A stretch of DNA of 64,000 nucleotides from a virus, in the IMG/VR virus record IMGVR_UViG_3300003937_000346, positions 1 through 64,000 of that record. One strand, written 5' to 3'. Positions 1,885 to 44,864 of the stretch are shown piece by piece. Both the position numbers and the translations under genes were made by a program. Below the pieces are notes generated by a model. The model made no database searches. It had not been told where the DNA came from and saw nothing but the letters and a program-made list of their open reading frames with translations. Within the stretch, counting starts at the first letter, position 1. The number at the start of each line of letters is the position of its first letter.

Positions 1885-1921
1885 CATAAAAAAACCCTTA
1901 ACCGTTACCGGAAAAGGGTTT
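1885..1921 (-). terminator. Intrinsic terminator of the candidate RNA gene
   Basis: On the minus strand, AAACCCTT pairs with AAGGGTTT (8 bp). Inside is a 2x2 internal loop, then CCG/CGG closing a GTAA tetraloop. The hairpin is followed directly by seven T (1891-1885). No gene ends just upstream of it, which is why it points to a non-coding transcript. Confidence 0.85.
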
Positions 1922-2392
1922 ATTATAAAAAAGAGGATGTATACCTCGGTATGCTATCCAAGGAAGATCATTCTGTCGTGTTTTATACTCATACAACTAT
2001 ACCAATTTTTACATTGATTCATTTTCGGAGTGTTAATCCTACGATGCGGGTACAACCCCTTATAGTTTACCTTACCCCCGAACAGAAGGGTTATTCAGTC
2101 ACAAGATGAGTTTGATCTTTCGACCGTCTCACAATGAGTTTGAAAGTAAGCTGTTTAGCTTGTGTAATGTCTACCACTTCTTCTTTGTCAAGATATCTTT
2201 ACATCAGTCTTGCGAACCTCAGCAAAAATAGTAGAACGTGTCTACTGTCAGTGTGGATTAATCCCCTTTCACAAAGATTTATTCTCCCATACACTCAGGA
2301 TATTGATGATCAATCTTAATCCTGCCTCTTTTCAATATTTTAAAGAACGTTAGGGGTCAATCGGTATCGTTTTGTTCAACCTATCCCTTTTG
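1885..2392 (-). ncRNA. Candidate structured non-coding RNA of about 500 nt
   Basis: The stretch between the genes at 1810 and 2459 holds no convincing reading frame, unlike the gene-packed surroundings. It starts with a near-ideal promoter (2399-2429) and ends in a strong terminator (1885-1921), both on the minus strand. It contains several local hairpins. A long one at 2296-2324 has 6-bp and 5-bp stems separated by a UAAG bulge. Others are GUAGA/UCUAC at 2231-2245, AAGCU/AGCUU at 2148-2161, GGUC-GAAA-GAUC with a GNRA loop at 2114-2125, and GGGU/ACCC at 2048-2058. A near-duplicate motif (UCAAACUCAU followed by UUGUGA) occurs at 2099-2115 and 2129-2143. Its base composition is visibly richer in G and C than the flanking spacers. 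It lacks the signatures of tmRNA, RNase P RNA, 6S or rRNA that I know. The transcript start is estimated from the promoter. Large phage RNAs such as GOLLD and ROOL are the closest kind of known object, but I cannot align to them here. Confidence 0.7.
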
Positions 2393-2398
2393 TTGGTA

Positions 2399-2429
2399 CA
2401 AATATATAAAACATTTTTTATTAAATCAA
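2399..2429 (-). promoter_or_regulatory. Promoter of the candidate ncRNA
   Basis: Minus strand: TTG at 2429-2427, 20 nt, then TATATTTG at 2406-2399. Spacing and both boxes fit the Bacteroidota consensus. Nothing encoded lies downstream until the terminator at 1885-1921, so its product should be the non-coding transcript. Confidence 0.75.
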
Positions 2430-7802: not shown

Positions 7803-8771
7803 CTATTTCCACGTAAAATCACATCCCATGTGTCCAAATGACGCGGTATCTTTATATATCGGTCTTCTTAATTCTAAGAAATCAATTATACCTTTAGGTG
7901 ATAAATCATATCCTTTGATAAATTCATGTTTCCCATCAACGATTGCAGTTGCTTGGAGTGGTTGGTCATATCCAATTGCATACGCAAGTTGAACCATAAC
8001 TTCTTTTACCTCTGGTCTTTGTTCTAAAATATCCACTGCAATTCTTCTTCCCATATATGCTGCGGATCTATCAACCTTAGTTGCGTCCTTACCACTAAAC
8101 GCACCACCACCAATAGGTATTCGTGGTCCGTAGTTATCCACTGCTAGTTTTCTTCCCGTTAAACCCGCATCAGCGGTAAACCCACCAATGTTCCAATCAC
8201 CCGCAGGATTACAATGAAGTGACTCTATCCTATACATTGGATAATTTTCTTCAAAAAATAAAACACATAACTCTTCTAATTTGTGTTGAGGTGCGTTTTG
8301 AAATGAACATACAACTCTAAGTGAGTTACCATTCATTGTAACTTGAGTTTTTCCATCATATGGAAAGAATTCGAATACAAGTTTGTTTAATTCACGTGCT
8401 AAGAAATATTCCTGTGGTAATTTTTGATCGTTATCTCTACAAGCATAACCAATCATAATTCCTTGGTCACCTGCACCACCAATATCAACTCCTTGAGCAA
8501 TCTCCGATGATTGTTGATTGATATTAATAATAACATTAATTGTGTTATCGGTAGTTACATCATGAACCACCTTTACAATATTTTCTCTTGTTACTACCGC
8601 ATTTGAAGTAACTTCTCCTGTAATGTAAACTTCTCCCATACCACCACAAGTTTCAATTGCACATCGTGAGTTAGGGTCTTGTTCTAAATGTAGGTCTAAT
8701 AATGTGTCCGAAATTCTGTCACACATCTTATCTGGGTGCATTGGGGATACACATTCTGCGGTTCTAATCAT
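7803..8771 (-). CDS. metK: S-adenosylmethionine synthetase
   Basis: Makes S-adenosylmethionine from methionine and ATP. Diagnostic motifs: HPDKMCDRISD near residue 12 (family HPDK), GGAGDQGIMIGYA around 97-109, and GGGAFSGKDATKVDRSAAY around 220-238 (phosphate-binding loop region). At 322 residues it is clearly shorter than cellular enzymes (about 380), with trimming at the N-terminus and in loops, as expected for a phage version. SAM could feed the DNA methylase (30926-31618), the methyltransferase (40666-41331) and the radical-SAM enzyme (42351-43349) in this window. It follows a small acidic gene by 14 nt. Confidence 0.93.
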   Translation of the reverse strand: MIRTAECVSPMHPDKMCDRISDTLLDLHLEQDPNSRCAIETCGGMGEVYITGEVTSNAVVTRENIVKVVHDVTTDNTINVIININQQSSEIAQGVDIGGAGDQGIMIGYACRDNDQKLPQEYFLARELNKLVFEFFPYDGKTQVTMNGNSLRVVCSFQNAPQHKLEELCVLFFEENYPMYRIESLHCNPAGDWNIGGFTADAGLTGRKLAVDNYGPRIPIGGGAFSGKDATKVDRSAAYMGRRIAVDILEQRPEVKEVMVQLAYAIGYDQPLQATAIVDGKHEFIKGYDLSPKGIIDFLELRRPIYKDTASFGHMGCDFTWK

Positions 8772-44100: not shown

Positions 44101-44864
44101 TATAAAAGTTTTTCAGTATCAGGTTTATCTGCCTCCCCCAACTTTAATTGTTTTCTCAATGACTCTTCTATTGAGAAACTATTTGTAGTTGCGTTTGCCA
44201 TTAATTGATTAATGTTCTTATCTATAAATACTGTGTAAGAAGAAGCGAGAGATAAAACTTGTTTTTGTTGTTCTGCGGACATCATTAAAATAGAATCCAA
44301 GTTACCTGTACCGATCCTACCATATGAAATCATATCTAACATTGCTTGTTTTGCCATCCTAACAGTCCAATACTCATGTTCAAATTTATCTTCTAATTCT
44401 TTATTACCGATTACATCAATTAAATCACTACCATCAGGTAGTTTAGCATCGTCAGTATCTAAGAAATCTTTTATTAAATCAATAAAACCTTGTCTCTCTA
44501 TGTAAGCATCTTTAAGATTTCTTTTAAATTTTCTAAGATCTATTTTCATATCTGAAATTGTGAGATCTACCAACTGTTTTCTTTTAGGGTCTGTTAAAAA
44601 TTCTTTACTCTCCTCTTGGATTTGTATTTCCAAATCCTGTTTTTTAACGGTATATTCTAAATGTTCTACGGCGTCTTCTCTACCTCTAAGTTCAAGTAAC
44701 CATTGTTTTAGTTTCGCATAAGGTGTTATTTGTGCACCCCCAACAAAATTTTCTGCCTTGTACCTTGGTAGTGCGAATGAAACTTGTTCCGCAACTTCAA
44801 TTAACTTAGTATCTAAACCATCTTTTAGGTTGTTGGTTTTTTCATATTTATACTCTTCTTTCAT
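44100..44864 (-). CDS. Helical hypothetical protein (254 aa)
   Basis: Almost entirely charged helix, with coiled-coil stretches around residues 60-130 (EHLEYTVKKQDLEIQIQEES; LRKFKRNLKDAYIERQGFID) and a helical end. It is the first gene after the fibre array, with a 58-nt gap holding a possible promoter (TTG, 21 nt, TAAAATTT). Could be a fibre-assembly chaperone or a structural protein. Family unknown. Confidence 0.65.
   Translation of the reverse strand: MKEEYKYEKTNNLKDGLDTKLIEVAEQVSFALPRYKAENFVGGAQITPYAKLKQWLLELRGREDAVEHLEYTVKKQDLEIQIQEESKEFLTDPKRKQLVDLTISDMKIDLRKFKRNLKDAYIERQGFIDLIKDFLDTDDAKLPDGSDLIDVIGNKELEDKFEHEYWTVRMAKQAMLDMISYGRIGTGNLDSILMMSAEQQKQVLSLASSYTVFIDKNINQLMANATTNSFSIEESLRKQLKLGEADKPDTEKLL

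Follow-up and report, generated by a model that had tools for sequence, protein, structure and literature searches.

The 64,000-nt stretch analyzed here (the window), positions 1 to 64,000 of a viral record of 142.7 kb, carries on its minus strand, at about 2430-1885, an RNA unit that belongs to the known family manA in an unusual double version, and is neither a new class nor an ornate large RNA. The new feature is its architecture: two manA-type cores lie approximately 190 nt apart within one closing helix, a site like the boxA of Bacteroidia ribosomal RNA (rRNA) leaders is located between the promoter and this helix, and several phages show no downstream gene that the RNA could regulate, or carry it among tRNA genes. 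We interpret the unit as a Bacteroidetes phage gene for a free-standing, non-coding RNA, a tandem-manA RNA that would act in trans and be made by means of the host rRNA antitermination machinery; we assign this interpretation a probability of roughly 0.6.

Results

A conserved, putative transcription unit without a gene

Two minus-strand open reading frames (ORFs), one of 281 aa ending at 2459 and one of 63 aa starting at 1810, flank a gap at 1811-2458. The ORF list and a comparison with the homologous locus L024 revealed no conserved gene in this gap. The only ORFs of at least 60 aa inside it lie on the plus strand (75 and 61 aa), and both are interrupted in L024 by stop codons and frameshifts, so that no reading frame is conserved between the two loci. 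GC content is approximately 0.38 in the interval versus 0.26-0.31 in neighbouring spacers. A first-pass annotation had described the stretch as gene-free and deviating in base composition, and both descriptions hold. The same RNA unit is present in the L024 and L025 genomes, where the adjoining neighbour protein is 92% identical. No DNA similarity to isolated phages was found for the RNA and its relatives, which consequently have no cultured host. A 32-base match at 44,456 of the same genome, which lies inside an ORF, reflects AT-rich likeness to the promoter region and was disregarded. Elsewhere in the window, positions 7803-8771 carry an S-adenosylmethionine synthetase-like gene with approximately 40% identity to streptococcal prophage proteins.

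The unit begins with ATTG-N20-TATATTTG at 2430-2399, which we take to be a Bacteroidetes-type promoter; transcription would start near 2392. From the upstream stop codon through the promoter, 62 of 62 bp are identical in L024, compared to 83.5% identity for the RNA body. In this AT-rich window the promoter pattern occurs 4 times versus 2.9 expected, and is hence not rare. At the other end, the intrinsic terminator AAACCCUUUUCCGGUAACGGUUAAGGGUUUUUUU (1921-1888) folds at -15.5 kcal/mol and shows a compensatory change from C-G to U-A in L024; a generic terminator scan missed it because of its internal loop. A promoter at 2399-2429 and a strong terminator at 1885-1921 had both been proposed at first pass, and are confirmed by these data.

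Covariation and a closing helix

Distinct sequences fall into two lineages, lineage A with two (window, L024) and lineage B with three (L078, L089, L102). The window and L024 are identical at 126 of 128 positions from the stop codon to the start of the body and at 340 of 407 positions (83.5%) within the body. Consensus folding of the window and L024 bodies reached -96.2 kcal/mol versus -56.2 +/- 5.3 kcal/mol for column shuffles preserving the conservation pattern (n = 200), corresponding to z = -7.5 with none of the 200 shuffles as good. Two-sided changes affect 12 pairs (2.4 on average and at most 7 in the shuffles), with no pair broken. Comparative folding of lineage B gave z = -6.3, while single-sequence folding was only mildly unusual (z = -1.7). 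The comparative result for lineage A is decisive for a structured RNA, and the earlier proposal of a non-coding structured phage RNA, conserved and presumably transcribed between its own promoter and terminator, is thereby upheld.

The most telling structural element is an outer helix joining the two ends of the body, in which the 5' strand GAAAAGAGG (2333-2325) pairs with the 3' strand CCUCUUUUU (1936-1928). In L024 the corresponding strands are GGAAAGUGA and UUACUUUCC, with two-sided changes in 3 of 9 pairs, one-sided changes in 2 and no broken pair, and an equivalent helix, GUGAAAGGUG/CAUCUUUCAC, is present in L078, L089 and L102. Within the body, a two-part stem at 2324-2296 and a GNRA-capped stem at 2125-2114, both already described at first pass, are present and conserved in L024, and occupy the position of the first manA hairpin, one in each domain. 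A duplicated motif reported at the same time is real (2143-2129 and 2116-2099); in L024 the second copy has diverged, and we assign the duplication no meaning of its own.

The 3' half is a diverged manA RNA

The first-pass annotation had found no match to parts of tmRNA, RNase P or 6S RNA, and had suggested a member of the GOLLD or ROOL families or a new class. A scan with cmscan at the Rfam gathering thresholds indeed reported nothing for the interval. At an E-value threshold, however, the region 2118-1934 (minus strand; domain 2) matched the manA family RF01745 over the full model (1-192) with 47.3 bits and E = 7.2e-11; the default scan misses it because this score lies below the gathering score of 55.2. 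L024 matched RF01745 at 49.6 bits. Neither GOLLD nor ROOL was matched up to E = 5, and the suggestion of either family or of a new class thus gives way to manA.

Domain 2 contains the core ACUGAAUAA-stem-UAAGGU at 2099-2069, with the manA internal loop CUGAAUAA/UAAGGU on its stem, preceded by the GNRA-capped hairpin at 2132-2106. A terminal hairpin is kept and covaries (CUUGG/CCGAG to UAAGG/CCUUA), its loop sequence differing from the manA form with GGUA...AAUCC. As the gathering cut-off reflects curation and not structure, we class domain 2 as a diverged member of manA. Many more phage contigs carrying the manA core were gathered, and most loci that keep the stem match RF01745, usually below the gathering score: 33 of 41 further phage records matched, 2 of these 33 above the cut-off. 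The Rfam cut-off thus conceals most of the phage manA RNAs collected in this analysis.

Several other candidates were rejected. A tRNA-like domain and tag frame, as expected for tmRNA, were sought with ARAGORN and Rfam, and neither program found one. In cmscan, the likeness to the L10 leader is limited to the terminator and AT-rich sequence, and a match to rli60 had E = 3.5. Most matches to the core pattern in bacterial genomes, for which the stem only was checked, look like chance.

A second manA-type core in the 5' half

The 5' half (domain 1, 2324-2155, minus strand) is a diverged, manA-like element. Its first hairpin (2324-2296) is followed at 2287-2255 by the core GGAGAAUAA-stem-UUAAUCC, which contains the core internal loop GAAUAA/UAA. 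Its match to RF01745 is weak (13.5 bits, E = 0.22), and the 5' half of L024 had no Rfam match. A MAFFT alignment of all manA types was too poor in its middle region for a model of our own, and domain 1 was therefore tested by a core motif consisting of two flanking pairs, xGAAUAA, a stem of at least 4 pairs, UAAx' and closing pairs. Since the motif was framed after domain 1 had been seen, background counts were taken from other loci. The window (128 kb on both strands) contains exactly two matches, at 2287 and 2099 of the minus strand, i.e. one per half, and exactly two were likewise found in each of L024, L078, L089 and L102. The spacing between the two cores is 187-193 nt in all five distinct sequences. 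Background counts were one match in 528 kb of loci from related phages, and 13 matches in 1.18 Mb of bacterial loci, part of which had been chosen by a similar pattern. The chance of a core motif in the domain 1 stretch is approximately 0.0004, or at most approximately 0.004 with the richer, pattern-selected background. Among the matches listed in a search with the pattern GGAGAATAA..TTAATCC, one was a locus already known.

A unit of the same layout is found in lineage B (contigs L102/L104, L089/L094 and L078). In L102, Rfam recognizes both adjacent halves as RF01745, the 5' half with 47.3 bits (E = 4e-11) and the 3' half with 25.9 bits (E = 9e-5). For L089 the model matches the 3' half alone (34.5 bits), and the 5' half is close to that of L102 in alignment. 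We regard tandem manA as firm in lineage B; for the window, where the 5' half has the core motif and a weak model match, it is probable. Alternatively, manA might occur only once in the window, extended on its 5' side by unrelated sequence specific to the lineage, as the low score of domain 1, the missing Rfam match in L024 and a manA-typical terminal hairpin that is not conserved in domain 1 would allow. Yet the core motif recurs at the same spacing in both lineages, against the odds given above, and the L102 counterpart of domain 1 is undoubtedly manA, so that we judge a single manA in the window to be quite unlikely.

A boxA-like site in the leader

Between the promoter and the closing helix, the transcribed leader contains a site, AACGTTCTTTAAAATATTG (2351-2333, minus strand), that resembles the boxA antitermination sites in rRNA leaders of Bacteroidia. 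Among distinct Bacteroidia 16S leaders, 38 of 50 carry GTTC[AT]TT[AG]A at -240 to -60, which in many of them takes the form GTTCTTTGAAAATATTGAAG. With a matrix built from these leaders, the window site ranks 2nd of 127,978 positions, with one better-scoring site elsewhere in the window; the corresponding site ranks 1st in L024, L078 and L102, and is not the best of its locus in L089. The two phage lineages share AACGTTCTTT and differ in the remaining leader sequence. Stand-alone single manA RNAs also carry such sites: the leader of L006/L010 has GATCTTTAACAATTTA, compared to GCTCTTTAACAATTTA in the E. coli rrsA leader, and L008/L016 have GATCTTTGAGAACT, close to GATCTTTGAAAACT of Paenibacillus rRNA leaders. 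In L396, a record with no Rfam manA match, GATCTTTGAAAATTTTG stands immediately before a manA-like core. Host-type, boxA-like sites precede the tandem RNA and some single manA RNAs; the shortness of the boxA motif counts against our interpretation of the unit.

Together, boxA and leader show the highest conservation of all transcribed parts of the unit (97% versus 83.5% in the body). This would be expected if the unit were a leader or operator devoid of RNA function, in which boxA and structure merely protect the transcript or act as a NusB decoy. Given that the 12 compensatory changes maintain the structure of the body, and that this body belongs to a known RNA family, we regard such a role as highly improbable.

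Neighbouring genes do not point to a regulated target

manA was proposed as a riboswitch, mostly as a 5'-UTR element, and was described as single (PMC2864571); the Rfam family is filed as cis-regulatory. In line with this, many of the manA copies collected adjoin an ORF, directly 5' of it. The window could accordingly hold a tandem riboswitch, in which a pair of manA aptamers works through the terminator (1921-1888) to control the 63-aa gene and its operon, similarly to tandem glycine riboswitches. The terminator directly follows the aptamers, the 63-aa gene lies on the same strand 78 nt beyond it, and AAAAGGG in the leader could pair with the terminator arm CCCUUUU. However, this pairing has no counterpart in lineage B, and terminators differ between the lineages with no matching leader complement. 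The 63-aa gene has a separate, putative promoter-like box past the terminator (TATATTTGGTG, 1832-1822, minus strand), and a boxA complex would favour ligand-independent read-through. A consistent position before a regulated gene was not seen among the relatives: the next gene downstream is convergent in L089 and in the single-manA loci L008/L016, a tRNA follows in L078, and in L102 and the window the genes that come next are unrelated. We therefore consider a tandem riboswitch unlikely.

In lineage B, the RNA is preceded by a gene whose homologue in the window lies at 33.6 kb, approximately 31 kb from the RNA; the RNA is thus not tied to a neighbour. In L431 and L422 a cyanophage-type manA is flanked by a tRNA gene on either side, and in L014 it comes directly after one; in L431, ARAGORN also called a tmRNA-like element overlapping tRNA genes. 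The proximity of manA to tRNAs has been noted before in some cases (PMC10832533). The phage setting had been likened at first pass to that of GOLLD and ROOL; with the tRNA-array relatives (L431, L422, L014 and L078) this parallel is real, while identity with those families is not. Taken together, the neighbours argue for action in trans.

Other manA groups

Some further observations were made on the collected loci. In a distinct manA group (L381, L397, L398, L399, L404, L405, L417 and L418), the sequence downstream of manA contains a ribosome-binding site, a micro-ORF (8-10 codons) that ends in tryptophan (MFIVLDPW, MLVIVLDPW, MIIIIDLDYW, MIVIVIDDW) and then a terminator-like hairpin. Read by eye, manA of L381 and L397 lies within an outer helix of 10-12 bp. 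In L397, L404 and their relatives, the last manA hairpin, GUGGGUAGCAAGUUCAAAUCCCAC, resembles the T arm of a tRNA carrying an insertion, and GGCCAAAUGGCUGAGG, ahead of it, the D arm of a serine tRNA; chance or tRNA mimicry may account for this. In a 180-kb phage (L414, 2500-2690), a short acceptor-plus-T-arm-like sequence, TTTTTACCCAG...GTAGGTTCAAACC...CTGGGTAAATA, lies 5' of a manA-like element and might represent a minimal tRNA-like RNA. The manA of L129 (NZ_RMVE01000006.1, labelled Nonlabens xiamenensis) is near-identical to that of cyanophage-type contigs and is accompanied by the start of a transaldolase-like gene; this is probably a cyanophage contig that contaminates a bacterial genome record.

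Discussion

The RNA shares with RF01745 a domain that matches the whole model, the ACUGAAUAA/UAAGGU internal loop and an origin from phages in aquatic samples. It differs in its tandem domains under one closing helix, in its own promoter, boxA-like leader and terminator, in a score below the gathering cut-off and in not being placed before a metabolic gene. Tandem glycine riboswitches likewise combine two related structured domains, whereas here the domains are of another kind, an outer helix encloses them and no consistent gene follows. GOLLD and ROOL are also stand-alone structured phage RNAs, and some manA relatives similarly reside in tRNA arrays, but their sequences are different and no Rfam match links them to this RNA.

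The closest functional analogy, which does not imply membership, is the rRNA operon leader. The order of promoter, boxA, closing-helix strand, structured RNA, partner strand and terminator is that of an rRNA unit, in which a 5' strand following boxA likewise joins the 3' end by base pairing and so encloses a structured RNA that is not translated. Unlike an rRNA operon, the phage unit contains no ribosomal RNA, its helix measures about 9-10 bp, and it would yield a single short transcript. That the whole unit is built like a miniature rRNA transcription unit suggests a free-standing RNA and not a gene switch. In rRNA operons, boxA is necessary and sufficient to assemble the antitermination complex, which has been proposed to tether the leader and thereby help the leader-trailer helix to close (PMC10250234).

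By analogy, host RNA polymerase would start at the Bacteroidetes-type promoter and transcribe the host-like boxA, which would recruit NusB-S10 and the antitermination complex. This complex may protect the untranslated transcript and hold its 5' end while the remainder is made. The strand just past boxA would then pair with the 3' end, closing an RNA of approximately 400 nt with two manA-type domains, and transcription would stop at the intrinsic terminator. The finished RNA would most likely be stable and act in trans, with its two manA domains binding a host partner or ligand; as relatives sit in tRNA arrays, a link to translation is possible.

More tentatively, and as a possibility that we would not yet call probable, phage manA RNAs as a group may be stable, trans-acting RNAs and not riboswitches, boxA-antiterminated, closed by a helix and often located in tRNA arrays, with the tandem form of Bacteroidetes phages acting on the host translation or transcription machinery.

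manA has lacked a proven function since its first description, and the unit in the window is compact, expressible and testable. The stand-alone double form with its host-type rRNA boxA, together with relatives that lack a downstream gene or lie in tRNA arrays, argues that at least some members of the family are wrongly labelled as cis-regulatory. These data also suggest that phages may borrow the rRNA antitermination and folding machinery of their hosts for structured RNAs of their own.
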